Of a stretch of DNA of 29,872 nt, positions 7,842-15,419 are shown piece by piece. A model generated the notes under the pieces. It saw nothing but the letters and a program-made list of their open reading frames with translations, was not told the DNA's origin and did not search any database. The DNA is from a virus, in the IMG/VR virus record IMGVR_UViG_3300017752_000097, positions 1 through 29,872 of that record. The stretch is one strand, 5' to 3'. The position numbers were made by a program, and so were the translations under genes. Within the stretch, counting starts at the first letter, position 1, and every line of letters begins with the position of its first letter.

Positions 7842-8082
7842 TGTAGGCGGATATTATTCTCAAACAACTTGGCAAGCTGGTGTAACACCTCTTAGCGAAG
7901 CAGCATTAAATAACATCGATGCAGGAATAGAAGGTGTACAAAAACAAGGAGTTCTCAAAAATGGTACTAACATAGCAGAGAACAAAACGTTGCCTACTGG
8001 CGAGAATTATTTATTAATATCTCCAATAACAGTAGATAACACAAAGACTTTAAACGTACAAGGAAAGCTTAAATTATTATGA
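7834..8082 (+). CDS. Small tail fibre-associated protein, TTG start (82 aa)
   Basis: No in-frame ATG exists near the 5' end. TTG at 7834 (TTG GCT AAT GTA) lies about 10 bases after GAAAGGA and overlaps the previous gene by 8 bases, so it is the likely start. It overlaps the next ATG (8079) by four bases. The C-terminal NYLLISPITVDNTKTLNVQG resembles trimeric fibre shaft segments ('G.N.....P.TI..G.TLTV...'). Probably a fibre subunit or attachment piece. Confidence 0.6.
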   Translation: MANVGGYYSQTTWQAGVTPLSEAALNNIDAGIEGVQKQGVLKNGTNIAENKTLPTGENYLLISPITVDNTKTLNVQGKLKLL

Positions 8083-9440
8083 GTGAATTAAATGTAGATA
8101 CTATAGCGGGTTCAACAGGTACTACGGTAACTGTAAAAACTGGACATACGCTAACACTTGTTGCAAATATGAATGCAGCAACAGCAAAGATTACAAACTT
8201 AGGAGACCCTTCATCCGCACAAGATGCAGCTACTAAAAATTATGTAGACACACAACTATTAACTTTAGATACATTAGGAGAATTGACTAATGTAACTATT
8301 ACATCAGTAGCAGATAATGAAGTGTTAGCTTATGACAATGGCACATCACTATGGATTAATCAAACTGCGTCAGAAGCTGGACTAGCAACAAGTGGAGATT
8401 TGTCAACACACACATCATCAAGTTCTAATCCGCACAGTGTTACAGCTTCACAAGTAGGAGCGACAACAACAGCTAATAAAATACATGATTTTGCCGCGCC
8501 AACAAGTGCTTTAGCAATGAACGCACAAAAAATAACTGGTGTAGCAGACCCAACAGCTGCGCAAGACGCATCTACAAAAGCTTATGTTGATTCACAGGTA
8601 CAAAGCAAAGATGCTTTATCAGAACTAAGCGGTAACACTGATGACGTATCAGAAGGTTCATCAAATCTTTACTATACAAATGAGAGAGTAGATGACAGAT
8701 TTAATGACTTATTTTCTGCTGGCACAGGTATAACAGGCACTTATGATGATGGTAACAACACTTATACTATTAACATTGACAGCACAGTAGCAACTTTAAC
8801 TGGTACACAAGTCTTAACAAATAAAAGTATTGATAGTGACAATAACACAATAACAAATATTGTTGACGCAGACATAAAGGCTGCTGCTGCTATTGACGCT
8901 ACTAAAATTGCAGACGGTTCAGTTACAAGCGCAGAGTTTCAACACATAAGTACATTAAGTTCTAATGCACAGACACAGTTAGATGCAAAAGCTACAACAT
9001 CTAATACATTAGATGAATTTGCAAATCCAGCTGCTGAAGTAGACATAAATGACCAAGATTTGTCAAAAGCAGTACTAAAAGATTATGCAGAAAAAGATGT
9101 TGCTGTAACATCGGGAACAACATTAGCTATTGATTTATCAAACGGTAACACAGGTTCTGTAACACTTGCACACAGTGTTACAGATATAGATTTTACAAAC
9201 GTACCAGCAGACGGTACTTCTACATTTACATTAAAAGTTACGCAAGATGGTACTGGTTCAAGGACATTAGCAATTAATGCAATAACTGTCAACGGTGGTT
9301 CAACTGTAACAGGACATACGAGCGGCAACGCTGGATTAACTTTAAGTACAGCAGCTGCTTCAGTTGACTTAGTAACATTTCTATTCTTTGATGCAGATAC
9401 ACCATTAATAAATGGATTATTAGACTTTAAGAACAGTTAG
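8079..9440 (+). CDS. Tail fibre protein with repeated shaft motifs
   Basis: 453 residues. Two copies of a fibre repeat are visible: residues 31-57 (MNAATAKITNLGDPSSAQDA...YVD) and 147-171 (MNAQKITGVADPTAAQDA...YVD). A LYYTNERVDDRF segment near 197-208 is another motif common in phage fibre shafts. The C-terminal ~100 residues are a beta-rich domain ending FFDADTPLINGLL. Such repeats form trimeric beta-structured fibres that position receptor-binding tips. The ATGA overlap with the previous gene indicates translational coupling. Confidence 0.8.
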   Translation: MSELNVDTIAGSTGTTVTVKTGHTLTLVANMNAATAKITNLGDPSSAQDAATKNYVDTQLLTLDTLGELTNVTITSVADNEVLAYDNGTSLWINQTASEAGLATSGDLSTHTSSSSNPHSVTASQVGATTTANKIHDFAAPTSALAMNAQKITGVADPTAAQDASTKAYVDSQVQSKDALSELSGNTDDVSEGSSNLYYTNERVDDRFNDLFSAGTGITGTYDDGNNTYTINIDSTVATLTGTQVLTNKSIDSDNNTITNIVDADIKAAAAIDATKIADGSVTSAEFQHISTLSSNAQTQLDAKATTSNTLDEFANPAAEVDINDQDLSKAVLKDYAEKDVAVTSGTTLAIDLSNGNTGSVTLAHSVTDIDFTNVPADGTSTFTLKVTQDGTGSRTLAINAITVNGGSTVTGHTSGNAGLTLSTAAASVDLVTFLFFDADTPLINGLLDFKNS

Positions 9441-9448
9441 GAGTAATT

Positions 9449-10264
9449 ATGCCGTTAGGAGCAGCAAGATTTGCTTTAAGTGGTGGTGCTAAACCCGATT
9501 TACTTGTTGATGTTTTAGTAGTTGCAGGTGGCGCTAGAGGTGGTACTGGTAACGATGCAGCTGGCGGTGGTGGCGCTGGTGGATATAGAACATTTAGTTC
9601 ACAACTATTAGATGGCGCAACAAACTACACAACTTATGTTGGCGCAGGTGGTACTTACAATGGAAACCCATCACATTTTAATGGAAATCAATCATCTTAT
9701 GGTGGCGCAGGTCGAAATAACTCTAATGGTAATTCAGGTGGTTCGGGTGGCGGCGCGGGATGGCAAGGGCAAACTGGTGGCGCAGGTAACGTTGGGGGTT
9801 ATTCTCCAGCAGAAGGTAAAGCTGGTGGAAATGTTTATTACGCAGGTAGCGGCGGCGGTGGTGCATCGCAAACAGGTGGATTTAGTGGAACATCGGGTGG
9901 CAATGGTGGCAATGGTTCACAATGGCTAGATGGTAATTATTATGCAGGCGGCGGTGGTGGCGGCGCAGACTACTATCGTTCGGGCAATAATGTGCAATCT
10001 TCGGGTGGCACAGGCGGCGGTGGGCTAGGGCAAGGCAGCGGTCAAGGGCAAGCAGGTGGAACAAACACAGGCGGTGGCGGTGGCGGGTCACGTTCGCATG
10101 TAAGCATTTCTGCGTTTAACGGTGGTTCGGGAGTAATAGGATTACGTTATCCTAAAGAATGGACTTTAAATGCTAATACAGTAAGCATATCTTCTGAAAC
10201 TACAAGCGGAGATTACAAATTTGCTTATGTACAATCGGGCAGCGGTTCTGTGTATTGGACATAA
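9449..10264 (+). CDS. Glycine-rich tail adhesin
   Basis: 271 residues behind TTAGGAGTAATT. After DVLVVAGGARGG the protein is dominated by Gly-rich runs (GGGGAGG, GSGGGG, GGGGGG) between about residues 30 and 215, ending in the hydrophobic GVIGLRYP and a polar tail. This matches the glycine-rich phage tail domain style (polyglycine sandwiches known from the S16 gp38 adhesin). It probably determines host receptor recognition at the fibre tip. The GGT/GGC runs make this stretch locally richer in GC than its neighbours; a 105-codon open frame in another phase (9612-9929) is a by-product. Confidence 0.75.
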   Translation: MPLGAARFALSGGAKPDLLVDVLVVAGGARGGTGNDAAGGGGAGGYRTFSSQLLDGATNYTTYVGAGGTYNGNPSHFNGNQSSYGGAGRNNSNGNSGGSGGGAGWQGQTGGAGNVGGYSPAEGKAGGNVYYAGSGGGGASQTGGFSGTSGGNGGNGSQWLDGNYYAGGGGGGADYYRSGNNVQSSGGTGGGGLGQGSGQGQAGGTNTGGGGGGSRSHVSISAFNGGSGVIGLRYPKEWTLNANTVSISSETTSGDYKFAYVQSGSGSVYWT

Positions 10265-10267
10265 GAT

Positions 10268-10687
10268 ATGGCACATTACGCATTTATAGATGAAAACAAC
10301 ATAGTCACACAGGTAATTGTTGGAGCAAATGAAGAAGAAACACCACCTACAGGATTTGAAACATGGGAAAGTTATTATCAAAATTTAGACTGGCATAGTG
10401 GTACGTGTTTAAGAACTTCATACAATACATTTCAAGGACAACATCTTACTGATGGCACACCATTTAGGGGTAACTATGCAGGAGAAGGTATGATATATGA
10501 TTCAGTCAATGATGTATTTTATGAACAACAGCCATACGCTAGCTGGACATTAGATAACAGTACATGGACATGGAAACCACCAATTGAAATGCCCGAACTG
10601 ACAGAAGAACAAAAAAATGCAGTAGAAGTAACTTCATATTTATGGAGTGAAGAAACTGCAAACTGGGTACAAAGAACACCAGAATAA
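10268..10687 (+). CDS. Tail fibre-associated hypothetical protein (139 aa)
   Basis: 139 residues starting MAHYAFIDENNIVTQVIVGA, rich in Trp and Tyr. Proteins with the opening 'MAH.A.ID.NNIV..VIV' are recurrent near fibre genes of marine phages, though their role is not established. It starts three bases after the adhesin stop and closes the structural tail operon; the next gene has its own promoter-like box. It may be an accessory adhesin or a chaperone for it. Confidence 0.6.
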   Translation: MAHYAFIDENNIVTQVIVGANEEETPPTGFETWESYYQNLDWHSGTCLRTSYNTFQGQHLTDGTPFRGNYAGEGMIYDSVNDVFYEQQPYASWTLDNSTWTWKPPIEMPELTEEQKNAVEVTSYLWSEETANWVQRTPE

Positions 10688-10688
10688 C

Positions 10689-10694
10689 TATAAT
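10689..10694 (+). promoter_or_regulatory. Candidate promoter -10 box of the halogenase cassette (leaderless)
   Basis: TATAAT at 10689-10694 is seven bases before ATG 10702, so a transcript would begin at about the A of the start codon. There is no convincing -35 box and no Shine-Dalgarno sequence. The box overlaps the end of the preceding gene, so the cassette can be expressed apart from the tail operon. Confidence 0.45.
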
Positions 10695-10701
10695 AAGTTG
10701 T

Positions 10702-11391
10702 ATGAGCAGCAACTTGTATTGGTTTTTATTACAAAAAGAAGATTTACCACCGCATCAACTTTATAAAGACCCGCAATTAAAAAAAACAGTAATCAATATT
10801 TGTCCGCAAACAATAGCTTTAGATAAAAGAACAATAGAAATTACTATGCCATACGATTTAATAATTAACAGACAAGAAGATGGTTCTTATTATGCACAAT
10901 CTAAACAAGTAGTTGGAGATAATTTATGGAATACAAGAGCAGTTTTAGCTATAGATACTGATACTAAAATAAAGGGATATGAAGACTTTTCTATATGTCA
11001 TATTAAAGTACCCTATGTTTTTATGTCAGAAAATAAAGATTTAACTTATTATTGGACTGCACCTAAAAGCAATACTAAACATAAAATTAAAGATGTAGTA
11101 TTTGCAGAAGGCTTAATGTATGTTGGCAGGTATGCAAGAAGTTTAGATATGGCTTTTATAATACCAAACAACAATGAAGTTATATTTAAAAAAGATGAAC
11201 CGTTGGGCTATCTATATTTTAATGATGAAATAAAGTTAAAAGAAATAATACCTAATCAAATCATTTTAAATTATATAAACTCAATATACGGAGTTACAAG
11301 TTATGTAAAAGGTGTATCTAAAATTTTTAAAAATGCTAAAAAAAGATACCCACATAAAGAATTAGCAAAGTGCGAGATAACAAATGAATAA
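10702..11391 (+). CDS. Accessory protein, DUF6065-like, first partner of the halogenase
   Basis: 229 residues, not firmly recognised. Its architecture parallels that of the protein at 12522: an early CP motif (INICPQTI) before a strand ending IINRQEDGSYY, a middle FSICHIKVPYVFMSENK, and a C-terminal EVIFKKDEPLGYLYFNDEIKLKEI. The corresponding segments of the other protein are LCPSFIDIF, IYLRWEDDGEYEW, VFKIVSPFRMQTPKG and LLIKQGEPLCYYVPFKREEF. The two therefore look like distant paralogues, probably a beta-rich cupin-like fold. It overlaps the halogenase gene by 8 bases. Substrate and function unknown. Confidence 0.6.
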   Translation: MSSNLYWFLLQKEDLPPHQLYKDPQLKKTVINICPQTIALDKRTIEITMPYDLIINRQEDGSYYAQSKQVVGDNLWNTRAVLAIDTDTKIKGYEDFSICHIKVPYVFMSENKDLTYYWTAPKSNTKHKIKDVVFAEGLMYVGRYARSLDMAFIIPNNNEVIFKKDEPLGYLYFNDEIKLKEIIPNQIILNYINSIYGVTSYVKGVSKIFKNAKKRYPHKELAKCEITNE

Positions 11392-12529
11392 AATTGCAGT
11401 TATTGGTAAAGGTACTGCTGGTTCTTTAGCATATAATCATTTTGGTTATTATACAGATTATGAAATAGATGTATATTTTGATAGTAGTAAAAAAGAACAA
11501 TCAGTTGGAGAAGGTACAACTATAGCCGTACCTAGAACACTACATTACACTACTGGATTTGAATTTCACAATTTAGATTTAATAGATGGTAATTATAAAA
11601 ATGCAATAAAATACATTAACTGGGTAGAGGATGACTTTTACCATACTTTTGAAGCACCAGCTATGTCAATGCACTTTAATGCAGTAAAATTACAAGAATA
11701 CATAGAAAGTAAAAATTTAGACAGAGTTAACTTTATAGACACGAACATTTCTAATCTTAAAGATGTAGATGCAGATTTTGTTATTGACTGTTCGGGTACT
11801 CCACAAAATTTTGACGAATATGAATATGCAGAATATATACCAGTAAACGCAGCCTTAGTAAAACAATGTTATTGGGAACATCCAAAATTCGACACAACAC
11901 ATTGTATAGCTAGTGAGTGGGGATGGATATTTGTAATACCTTTAAAAAACAGAGTATCTTTTGGATATTTATATAATGACAAAATTACAGATGTAAAAAT
12001 AATTAGAGAACAATTAAACGAAGTTATTGATAATTATAAATACACACCTAAAGATAAAGAATTAACTTTAAATTTTAATAACTACTACAGGAAGAACAAT
12101 TTTTATAAAAATAAAGCTTACAATGGCAACGCTTCTTTCTTTTTAGAACCAATGGAAGCTACAAGTCTTACAACAGTAGACAACATAAATAGAAAAATTT
12201 ATGATTTAATAAAGCAGCCCGAAAGTGTATATGATGCTAATAATTGGTATTCAAGGTCGTTTAAAGAATTACAAGATATTATTGTTATGCACTATTTAGG
12301 GGCTACAAAATATGATAATGAATTTTGGACACACGCAAAACAACTTGCTGAAGAGTGTTTATCTGATACATCTAAAACAAGCAGAGTTTATAAAGAAGTT
12401 TTAAGAAATATAAATAATAAGAAGTTCGACTTAAACATTGATTATGGAGTTTGGCGCATGCACAGTTTTAATCAAAATATAAACAATATGAAATTATTAA
12501 ATAAATTAAGGAAGTTAGCAGATGTTTAA
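11384..12529 (+). CDS. Flavin-dependent (tryptophan-type) halogenase
   Basis: 381 residues, shorter than the 500-540 of classical tryptophan halogenases. A dinucleotide-binding loop IGKGTAGSLA lies at 7-16. SVGEGTT (40-46) is followed by DGNYKNAIKYINW, in which K72 aligns with the catalytic lysine that activates HOX. EWGWIFVIPLKNRVSFG (178-194) is a variant of GWxWxIP with Phe for the second Trp and fits the Fx.Px.Sx.G halogenase motif (F183, P186, S192, G194). LEPMEATSL contains E258 at the position of the active-site glutamate. It needs reduced flavin from a reductase not encoded here. Halogenases are known in marine phages (VirX1 of cyanophage Syn10). Substrate unknown. Confidence 0.85.
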   Translation: MNKIAVIGKGTAGSLAYNHFGYYTDYEIDVYFDSSKKEQSVGEGTTIAVPRTLHYTTGFEFHNLDLIDGNYKNAIKYINWVEDDFYHTFEAPAMSMHFNAVKLQEYIESKNLDRVNFIDTNISNLKDVDADFVIDCSGTPQNFDEYEYAEYIPVNAALVKQCYWEHPKFDTTHCIASEWGWIFVIPLKNRVSFGYLYNDKITDVKIIREQLNEVIDNYKYTPKDKELTLNFNNYYRKNNFYKNKAYNGNASFFLEPMEATSLTTVDNINRKIYDLIKQPESVYDANNWYSRSFKELQDIIVMHYLGATKYDNEFWTHAKQLAEECLSDTSKTSRVYKEVLRNINNKKFDLNIDYGVWRMHSFNQNINNMKLLNKLRKLADV

Positions 12530-13229
12530 AAAAGAAAAACCCTATTTAAAATTTAGTACACCATTTAAAGGACTTGAAAATATAGAACAAGTTTTACCAC
12601 AGCCAGCAAAAAACTTTATACCAAAATGGTTTAAAGATATGCCACCAACACCTAAAGATGATTTTCACACAAAATTAGTACCACAAAGTAAAACTGCAAA
12701 GTTATGTCCAAGTTTTATAGATATATTTCACAACGGATTTGTTTTACCAGCACATTGTGATATTTATTTAAGATGGGAAGATGACGGGGAATATGAATGG
12801 CAAACATCTTTTGAAGAATACGAAATGCAAATACATCACGATATACAAATGAAAGATTATGCACCTAAAGAAGCAAAAATACAAAAGGTGTTTAAAATTG
12901 TTTCTCCATTTAGAATGCAAACACCTAAAGGTTATAGTGTTTATCAAGTTCCAATGTTATATCATTACAATACTGACTGGCATGTACCTTATGGAGTTAT
13001 ACATACAGACAAACACCATATAATTAATCAACAAATTGTTGTAACTGCTGAAAATAAAAATCAGCTATTAATTAAACAAGGCGAACCATTATGTTATTAC
13101 GTTCCATTTAAACGAGAAGAATTTGATTTAAAGATAGAATCATGGAGTGATAAGTGGGAAACTCTAACAAGAGAAAATTTATATAAAGTACACTCAAAGT
13201 TTAAAGGCGGGTACTTAAAAAATATATGA
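12522..13229 (+). CDS. Accessory protein, DUF6065-like, second partner of the halogenase
   Basis: 235 residues, overlapping the halogenase by 8 bases. The C-terminal pattern LLIKQGEPLCYYVPFKRE and the middle SPFRMQTPKGYSVYQVPMLY are typical of DUF6065-type proteins, which occur in phages and bacteria without an established function. It is His-, Trp- and Tyr-rich (IHHDIQ; DKHHIINQQ), so metal binding is possible. It matches the 10702 protein segment by segment at low identity. The shared operon and overlaps imply joint action with the halogenase, for example as substrate carrier or as another tailoring enzyme; that is inference. Confidence 0.65.
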   Translation: MFKKEKPYLKFSTPFKGLENIEQVLPQPAKNFIPKWFKDMPPTPKDDFHTKLVPQSKTAKLCPSFIDIFHNGFVLPAHCDIYLRWEDDGEYEWQTSFEEYEMQIHHDIQMKDYAPKEAKIQKVFKIVSPFRMQTPKGYSVYQVPMLYHYNTDWHVPYGVIHTDKHHIINQQIVVTAENKNQLLIKQGEPLCYYVPFKREEFDLKIESWSDKWETLTRENLYKVHSKFKGGYLKNI

Positions 13230-13243: not shown

Positions 13244-13375
13244 ATGGAATACATCACAGGCTTTTTATTTGGTTATTTTTTAAAAGAAATTAGTAATACT
13301 CTTAAAAGAATGAGTAAATACGACAATGACAACAGAGAGACGTGGGATTTTTTAACCTACGATGACCTACCATAA
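13244..13375 (+). CDS. Small membrane-associated protein (43 aa)
   Basis: ATG 13244 to TAA 13373-13375 encodes 43 residues beginning MEYITGFLFGYFLKEISN. The aromatic hydrophobic N-terminus could be a short membrane anchor; the rest is polar and acidic (DNDNRETWDFLTYDDLP). Its stop overlaps the ATG of the next gene by one base, supporting real translation. It could belong to the lysis or envelope block; no family recognised. Confidence 0.6.
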   Translation: MEYITGFLFGYFLKEISNTLKRMSKYDNDNRETWDFLTYDDLP

Positions 13376-13584
13376 TGGATTACACTAACAAATCAACGCA
13401 GCCCCAGCCAAATGGCTTTACTACGAAAGAAATGTTAATAATGATATTAGAAGGTCAAAAACAAATTAATAAACGCATCGATGAACTACACGAAAAAGTA
13501 AATACAAAAATTAGCAGACAAGAATTGAGCGGTTGGTTAGTTGCAGTATCTGCACTAATAGTCATTATCAATTCTGTAATGTGA
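13375..13584 (+). CDS. Small C-terminally anchored membrane protein (69 aa)
   Basis: 69 residues: a polar N-terminus, a charged amphipathic helix (MILEGQKQINKRIDELHEKV, about 22-41) that could form a coiled coil, and a single C-terminal transmembrane segment GWLVAVSALIVIINSVM (53-69). This resembles hemolysin XhlA-like or other phage lysis accessory proteins. It overlaps the preceding stop by one base and the following GTG start by four bases. A role at the host membrane is likely; holin-like or spanin-like function is conjecture. Confidence 0.65.
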   Translation: MDYTNKSTQPQPNGFTTKEMLIMILEGQKQINKRIDELHEKVNTKISRQELSGWLVAVSALIVIINSVM

Positions 13585-15419
13585 AGATATTTAAAAGTTT
13601 ATTAGTTTTACTCTTATTGCTACCAACAACTGTTTTAGCACAAGAAGTACCTAACGAAGTTACAATTAATGAAGATTTTAGTGACAGCAGTTATCAAAAT
13701 GGATTAACTATAAGTGGTGGTAATCAAGCTGCATATATCTATACAGGAGAAAACGATAGCTACAATACCACAGGTAACTCATTAGCAATAATGAGCGGTA
13801 CTTATCTGTTTGAATTTACTGAAGATGTATATGAAGTAGGTTTCATGGTAGCTGCCGTAAATAATGCTTACTCTGTTACTTGGAATTATGCAGACAACAC
13901 AAGCGAAACAGAAAATAAATCGGGTCAAAGTACTTCTAATTTTGACAATATGTACGATGACTTTTATAAATCGTTTACTGATTACAACAACGATGAAGCT
14001 AATACAGACAAATTTATAACTTCATTTTCTGTAACGCTGTCTGATATATCTTTACTTGATACGTTGTATTGGCAATATGTAGATATTACTGTTACTACAA
14101 CATCTAGTACTACTACAAGTAGTACAACTACAAGTACTACGACTACAAGTACTACAACGACCACTACTACCCTACCGCCAAAACCTATAGTTTATGAGCC
14201 GCCACCACCGCCACCACCACCCGAACCAACAACTGTTATTGTGATTTTAGACAATGGAGAAGAAGCAGAGTATGAAGAATATGAAGTAGAAGATGGTACA
14301 GTTGACAGAGATAACGAACGCAAAAAGAATTACGATTTATATGGTGTTGAATTAACAGATGCACAAATTGAAAGAGGAGATTTAGAACTATATGACACAC
14401 AAAAAGAAGATTTGGAACAAGTCACAGAAGAGCTTCCTAATGATGATTTTATATATGACGATTTGGAAGATGAATATGTTGAGGAAGAATACATTGAACT
14501 TACTAAAGAAGAAATACTTGAGCTTGAGAAACAAGTTGAGATTGAACTTAAAGAACTTGAAGAAGAATCTATTATTTTGGTGGACTCTGCGGAAATAATA
14601 GAAGACTTAAAACTTGAGGGCGAAGACTTACAAGATTTTATAGACACTATACAGAAGTTAGAAGAAATAGATTTTGAAGAAGAATTTGCAATAGAAGATG
14701 AAGAGTTTGTATTAGAAGAAATAATAACAGAAGATATAATAATTATTGATGATAAAGAAATCAAAGAAGAAGATATTTTTATTGAAGCAGAAGAAGAAAG
14801 CCAAGTTGTTGAGCTTGCAGATGAAGATATATCTACTGAAGAACAAATTAAAGAAGAGATAGCTGTAGAAGTTGCCGAAGTTGAAGAAATTATTCAAGAC
14901 ATTATTATTGAAGAAGTTACTACTGAAGAGGTTATAGAAGTTATTCAAGAAGTCAATGACATTGGTGTACAAAACTTAGAATTTGCAACAGAAGAAGTAC
15001 AAGAAATAGTACAAGCAGTTGTTGTAGAAGCTATTCAAACAGTAGAAGAACTGACAGAAGAACAGGTAGAAGTAGTAGCTGAAATATTACAAGTAGAATC
15101 AACAGAAGATGTTCAAGTATATGCCGCAGCTGCGGAATCTGAAAAAAGCGTTGAAGTTGCAATAGAAGAATATGTAGAACGAAGTATTGCAAATGCTGAT
15201 GTAGAAAACTACAACATTGCTGACGTTGTATCTGAAGTGAATGTAGAGTTGTTTTTGGAATCGCCAATAGATGCTATTATTAATGTAGATTTAAGCGGCA
15301 TAGAGTTATCTAACATCGGTGCGGATATGGCAGATACTCAAAAAGAAAAAGCACAAGAAGTATTTGCGCCAGTTGTTTTGACACAAATAGTAGCAATTAC
15401 TAGAAGAAGGTTATTTTGA
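13581..15419 (+). CDS. Large secreted protein with Thr-rich, Pro-rich and acidic regions
   Basis: The best start is GTG 13581 in a GTGA overlap with the previous stop; it gives 612 residues beginning with a clean signal peptide (MKIFKSLLVLLLLLPTTVLA, likely cut before QE at 20/21). An ORF start at 13533 would bury the signal. After a beta-rich domain (about 21-168) come a Thr/Ser linker (170-197), a run of eight prolines (207-214) and about 330 residues that are extremely Glu/Asp/Ile-rich (EEIIQDIIIEEVTTEEV style). A milder Ala/Val region ends in RRRLF. No C-terminal membrane helix or sorting motif. Possible roles are envelope modification, superinfection exclusion or lysis support. No family recognised. 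Confidence 0.7.
   Translation: MKIFKSLLVLLLLLPTTVLAQEVPNEVTINEDFSDSSYQNGLTISGGNQAAYIYTGENDSYNTTGNSLAIMSGTYLFEFTEDVYEVGFMVAAVNNAYSVTWNYADNTSETENKSGQSTSNFDNMYDDFYKSFTDYNNDEANTDKFITSFSVTLSDISLLDTLYWQYVDITVTTTSSTTTSSTTTSTTTTSTTTTTTTLPPKPIVYEPPPPPPPPEPTTVIVILDNGEEAEYEEYEVEDGTVDRDNERKKNYDLYGVELTDAQIERGDLELYDTQKEDLEQVTEELPNDDFIYDDLEDEYVEEEYIELTKEEILELEKQVEIELKELEEESIILVDSAEIIEDLKLEGEDLQDFIDTIQKLEEIDFEEEFAIEDEEFVLEEIITEDIIIIDDKEIKEEDIFIEAEEESQVVELADEDISTEEQIKEEIAVEVAEVEEIIQDIIIEEVTTEEVIEVIQEVNDIGVQNLEFATEEVQEIVQAVVVEAIQTVEELTEEQVEVVAEILQVESTEDVQVYAAAAESEKSVEVAIEEYVERSIANADVENYNIADVVSEVNVELFLESPIDAIINVDLSGIELSNIGADMADTQKEKAQEVFAPVVLTQIVAITRRRLF
14088..14171 (+). repeat. Low-complexity ACT/ACA/AGT triplet repeat encoding a Thr/Ser linker
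   Basis: A run of Thr and Ser codons, mostly ACT, ACA and AGT with a recurring ACAAGTAC unit, encodes residues 170-197 of the secreted protein. Linkers of this kind, followed by polyproline, typically span cell-wall layers. Codon-level repetition suggests slippage or unequal recombination as a source of length variation. Confidence 0.75.

Follow-up and report, generated by a model that had tools for sequence, protein, structure and literature searches.

A short flavin-dependent halogenase (FDH) of a marine bacterial virus is encoded between, and overlaps with, genes for two homologous proteins, A and C, for which the trimeric-dUTPase fold is predicted. Proteins of the A/C type also adjoin halogenases in other phages, and this linkage supports a functional pairing of halogenases with dUTPase-fold proteins. 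On balance, we lean towards a halogenase that works with catalytically dead A and C as scaffold or substrate-presenting partners.

Organization of the cassette

The window, i.e., the whole stretch of DNA that was analyzed, is a viral record of 29,872 bases without close relatives in our phage collection; its tape measure, portal, and terminase genes are of siphovirus type. The features in and around the cassette are given in Table 1. Re-reading of the sequence reproduced the open reading frames of a first-pass annotation as well as the 8-base overlaps that it had reported at both junctions: A and the halogenase share ATGAATAA (11384-11391), and the halogenase and C share ATGTTTAA (12522-12529). 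Two related contigs, L005 and L014, have this gene order as well; their proteins are 64-77% identical to those of the window (76-77% for gene A), and dN/dS was 0.07-0.23 across the three genes. Given this recurrence and these ratios, A, the halogenase, and C are taken to be real, selected genes, and all three are under purifying selection. Further downstream, the 628-residue p628 has a Thr-rich stretch followed by a highly acidic one and no significant Pfam match.

Table 1. Genes of the halogenase cassette and its surroundings in the window
Feature	Position	Strand	Basis
Tail-fibre-like protein	8079..9440	+	Profile match
Adhesin-like glycine-rich protein with a Gly_rich_2 domain, conserved upstream	9449..10264	+	Domain match, slot comparison
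p139, PHROG_7759, conserved, borders the variable slot upstream	10268..10687	+	PHROG match, slot comparison
Gene A, 229 aa, divergent protein of predicted dUTPase fold, homologous to C	10702..11391	+	AF2 fold prediction, hhalign against C, conserved in L005 and L014
Halogenase, 381 aa, flavin-dependent, short viral clade	11384..12529	+	GxGxxG 8-13, K72, GWxF 180-183, FLEPMEATS 253-261 with E258
Gene C, 235 aa, predicted dUTPase fold, PHROG_7084, DUF6065-related family	12522..13229	+	AF2 pLDDT 92; His161 at the position of the motif III catalytic Asp
o69, small protein, C-terminal hydrophobic segment, putatively holin-like, downstream slot border	13375..13584	+	Slot comparison and sequence
p628, Thr-rich and acidic, secreted-looking, conserved downstream of the slot	13533..15419	+	Slot comparison

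The cassette had also been proposed to be expressed apart from the tail operon, behind a TATAAT of its own. The hexamer does exist at 10689, but TATAAT occurs 31 times in the window against 47 expected (shuffled mean), i.e., at or below chance, no promoter-like pair was scored at 10689, and only 14 nt separate A from the upstream gene. A separate promoter at this position is therefore unsupported, and we rejected it.

The halogenase belongs to a large viral clade

The assignment of the middle gene as an FDH is confirmed by its matches to Pfam Trp_halogenase (PF04820; 116 bits, cut-off 21) and PHROG_2928 (1.6e-63). Its flavin-binding loop was found as annotated, with G8, G10, and G13 invariant among 14 sequences. 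The Lys and Glu previously placed at catalytic positions were compared with a known active site by sequence alignment, in which the columns of K72 and E258 are invariant and pair these residues with K75 and E354 (gene numbering) of VirX1, the halogenase of cyanophage Syn10. They are kept in 104 and 101, respectively, of 106 short viral halogenases.

Two further readings of the first-pass annotation had to be revised. The strict FxxPxSxG motif that it described is absent; the sequence reads FLEPMEATS (Ser to Ala, Gly to Ser), and across the short clade Ala (103/106) and Ser (94/106) likewise stand at the classical Ser and Gly positions after the Glu. Since these correspond to Ser347 and Gly349 of classical FDHs, halogenase activity is not guaranteed. 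The strict GWxWxIP motif is also replaced, here by GWIFVIP, and the GWxF noted earlier is the clade consensus (103/106). Because this motif is relaxed clade-wide, membership in PF04820 is retained on the profile score and the catalytic residues. The Phe and the short length had been read as signs of an unusual substrate of this particular enzyme; that argument fails, since both traits mark the whole viral clade.

Most members of this clade have ~360-420 residues, and the clade is large and almost purely viral, with relatives on at least 525 IMG/VR contigs as against just 9 among the genome contigs that were scanned. Viral halogenases are thus widespread. Compared with VirX1, 62 residues are missing after the Fx/HxF strand, and 28 and 13 are missing near the C-terminus. 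The missing block and the C-terminal shortening, as aligned, argue against a plain free-tryptophan halogenase.

Some phage contigs (L148, L152, L153, L085, L114, L159, and L165) carry two or three FDH genes in tandem. In addition, two loci (L119:8965-10143 and L120:6572-7750) hold, next to an intact FDH gene, a second and degenerate paralogue that has lost both the catalytic Lys (replaced by Arg) and the Glu.

A and C are homologous proteins of predicted dUTPase fold

BLAST gave nothing significant for A against C or against phages, so profiles were needed to detect homology. Comparison of the two family profiles (hhalign) yielded 95.6% probability with an E-value of 1e-8. Among 7,180 ORFs, the nearest outsiders of the A family were mostly C-family proteins, and vice versa, though one or two unrelated ORFs had E-values similar to those of the cross-matches. 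Together with the shared predicted fold, the profile comparison bears out the initial description of the flanking proteins as related.

Both structures are AF2 monomer predictions (pLDDT 92 for C and 85.7 for A). The structure matches listed for C were all dUTPases (best Z 11.8), as were the VIA-align matches listed for A (Z 8.1, rmsd 3.0 over 108 residues); A's Z of about 8 is weaker than that of C and near the tool's caution level, and it is backed by the homology to C. We infer the trimeric-dUTPase fold for both. Neither protein matches Pfam dUTPase (PF00692) or, with C searched at E ≤1, DUF6065 (PF19541). Of 57 C relatives, 18 do match DUF6065 (best 2e-8), and C is a member of a large phage family near DUF6065. 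Around canonical DUF6065 genes, no halogenase was found in the ~1.5-kb flanks of 30 alphaproteobacterial loci, and the part of the literature covered yielded no paper on DUF6065 by name.

Residue equivalence in A and C rests on profile alignments. His161 of C is placed at the position of the dUTPase motif III catalytic Asp (HMMER E about 0.1, in agreement with the fold). In C proteins linked to halogenases or to A/C arrays, position 161 is mixed (E/K/H/R/D), as against Asp in 27 of 32 C proteins elsewhere, and position 192 (motif IV Gln) is mixed, as against Gln in all 32. Halogenase-linked C proteins thus mostly lack both of the aligned dUTPase residues, a loss that suggests a binding role; A and C are probably no longer enzymes. 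Some C relatives without a halogenase adjoin genes for thymidylate synthase, dCMP deaminase, and PhoH; such genes occur in viruses of haloarchaea as well as in other phages (L021; some of L037-L101), and, with Asp and Gln kept, they possibly form a family of divergent dUTPase-like enzymes.

A/C genes recur beside halogenases of two clades

Within the subclade of the window's enzyme, A/C genes lie directly beside the halogenase in 14 of the 14 scorable members, some of which are near-copies. The gene order varies (A-H-C, A-H-C-C, C-H-A, C-H-C, and H-A, where H is the halogenase), and the ends mostly overlap. On a tree of 122 halogenases, built by a quick tree search and with neighbours taken from a simple ORF caller, A/C adjacency requires 3 changes against a shuffled mean of 17.7, and at least 2 are forced by well-supported branches. 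It is seen in the window's subclade, among the VirX1 relatives of a second clade, and in L035, a row of uncertain status. As far as this tree can tell, the linkage was gained at least twice.

VirX1, a trimeric FDH with a preference for iodide that has been crystallized, is reportedly the only viral halogenase studied in the laboratory so far. In Syn10, a C gene, CPUG_00130, overlaps the 3' end of the VirX1 gene, whose product matches PDB 6QGM over its full length. C adjoins all VirX1 orthologues of at least 43% identity in the phage collection (syn9, S-CREM1, Sf-FP1, Sf-CH3, Sf-FR1, P-TIM40, and S-RIM44). These loci were first found via C, and a later search from VirX1 removes that bias. In S-CREM1, nine 2OG-Fe(II) oxygenase/JmjC genes lie directly behind the halogenase and C (L022:6837-12327).

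The flanking genes thus do co-occur with halogenases in related phages. The three-gene module of the first-pass annotation is supported by the conservation of overlapping neighbours in divergent phages, by two or more gains on the tree, and by purifying selection, which was seen for each of the three genes. In the flanks that were fetched, the majority of short viral halogenases lack an A/C neighbour; A and C are therefore not needed for halogenase function generally. Likewise, the majority of C genes lie away from any halogenase. The neighbours of short halogenases include many tail-fibre and 2OG-Fe(II) oxygenase families; in T4-like phages, short halogenases are also found next to head genes or within metabolic islands. 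In the literature covered, which was partial, no link between halogenase and dUTPase-fold genes was found.

In the siphoviruses, the cassette occupies a variable slot that separates the tail adhesin from the lysis genes; its borders are the Gly-rich adhesin and p139 upstream and o69 and p628 downstream. Accessory genes of unrelated kinds commonly insert at this tail-to-lysis boundary. The adjacent adhesin had been suggested as a possible substrate, and the cassette does sit behind tail adhesin genes; however, this link is positional only, since the same slot in other phages (L025-L032) holds C-C-C-A tandem arrays without a halogenase. The aromatic content of the adhesin was compared as a candidate trace of protein halogenation; Trp was slightly higher in adhesins accompanied by a halogenase (p 0.03, one of ten comparisons, kinship ignored), and this trace was not adopted. 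The position points to host recognition, though the locus is a hotspot for accessory genes.

A possible role for A and C, and its alternatives

FDHs convert FADH2, O2, and halide to hypohalous acid. As no flavin reductase was recognized in the window, FADH2 presumably comes from a host reductase. An electrophilic FDH of the virus-specific short clade would be co-translated with its homologous partners A and C; by what is known of FDHs, hypohalous acid would reach Lys72, and Glu258 would assist halogenation of an aromatic ring. A and C may form dUTPase-like trimers, bind the halogenase, and deliver the aromatic substrate to its shortened active site. We know of no natural substrate of a viral halogenase. 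The most likely class is a large molecule located where phage and host surface meet (the tail adhesin or a host surface molecule), and a small host metabolite is nearly as likely.

The enzyme might instead add Cl or Br to a free, tryptophan-like or phenolic host metabolite, with A and C either being unrelated accessory genes of the slot or binding a nucleotide-like cofactor. This reading is possible though doubtful. FDH relatives of known structure act on small aromatics, and VirX1 takes many small substrates (PMC8407142). For the halogenases of jumbo cyanophages, a part in the chemistry of secondary metabolites or of the capsule, together with 2OG oxygenases, has been proposed (PMC7824862), and chlorotryptophan was proposed by the authors of the S-CREM1 study (PMC9964418). 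However, the segments absent relative to VirX1 speak against it, no biosynthetic genes were recognized in the 30-kb record, and the repeated overlap of A/C with halogenases would be left unexplained. Nucleotide chemistry, in which A and C bind a pyrimidine nucleotide and the halogenase modifies the nucleobase or nucleotide, would suit the predicted fold and the nucleotide-metabolism neighbours of halogenase-free C relatives, yet we consider it highly improbable: the aligned Asp and Gln are mostly lost precisely in halogenase-linked C, the cassette lies in the tail/lysis region away from replication genes, and to our knowledge no halogenated phage base has been described.

It is also unlikely that A and C are independent host-range or superinfection proteins of the variable slot and the halogenase an unrelated passenger. 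The halogenase-free arrays in the same slot and the many short halogenases with other neighbours fit such a reading, but the constant, mostly overlapping adjacency in the subclade persists despite changed gene order, and C is again found next to VirX1 in the cyanomyoviruses, which are another group of phages with halogenases of another clade. We accordingly prefer A and C as partners of the halogenase. A bolder proposal, to which we assign little probability, is that inactivated dUTPase-fold proteins became FDH partners in phages on at least two occasions, that the complex halogenates a macromolecule (the tail adhesin or a host surface polymer) and so alters host recognition, and that the broad substrate range of VirX1 in vitro reflects the missing partner.

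The C protein beside VirX1 and the A and C proteins beside short halogenases may be unrecognized partners, which can be tested. The overlapping partner gene recurs, at VirX1 too, and offers a direct experimental handle on the substrates of viral halogenases; the pairing also hints at a novel function of the dUTPase fold.

Comparison with known systems

VirX1 is a homologous phage-encoded FDH with aligned catalytic Lys and Glu, and in both loci a C-family gene overlaps the 3' end of the halogenase. It differs in length (530 aa against 381 aa), in belonging to a separate clade that excludes the window enzyme, in having S355, G357, and GWxW where the latter has Ala, Ser, and GWxF, and in that no A gene was found beside it. 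With PrnA, RebH, and PyrH (PF04820), the window enzyme shares the Pfam family, GxGxxG, and the Lys and Glu, whereas it is shorter by at least about 130 residues, has GWxF for GWxW and ATS for STG, and lies in a phage tail locus. Cyanophage "tryptophan halogenases" of PHROG_2928 (S-RIM4, S-ShM2, and S-SSM5) belong to the same short clade, with 42% identity to the S-RIM4 copy, but have no A/C neighbours. Finally, A and C resemble trimeric dUTPases in predicted fold, and C is tied to DUF6065 through its matching relatives; in contrast to members of either Pfam model, A and C carry about 100 extra residues, and C has His161 in place of the dUTPase motif III Asp.
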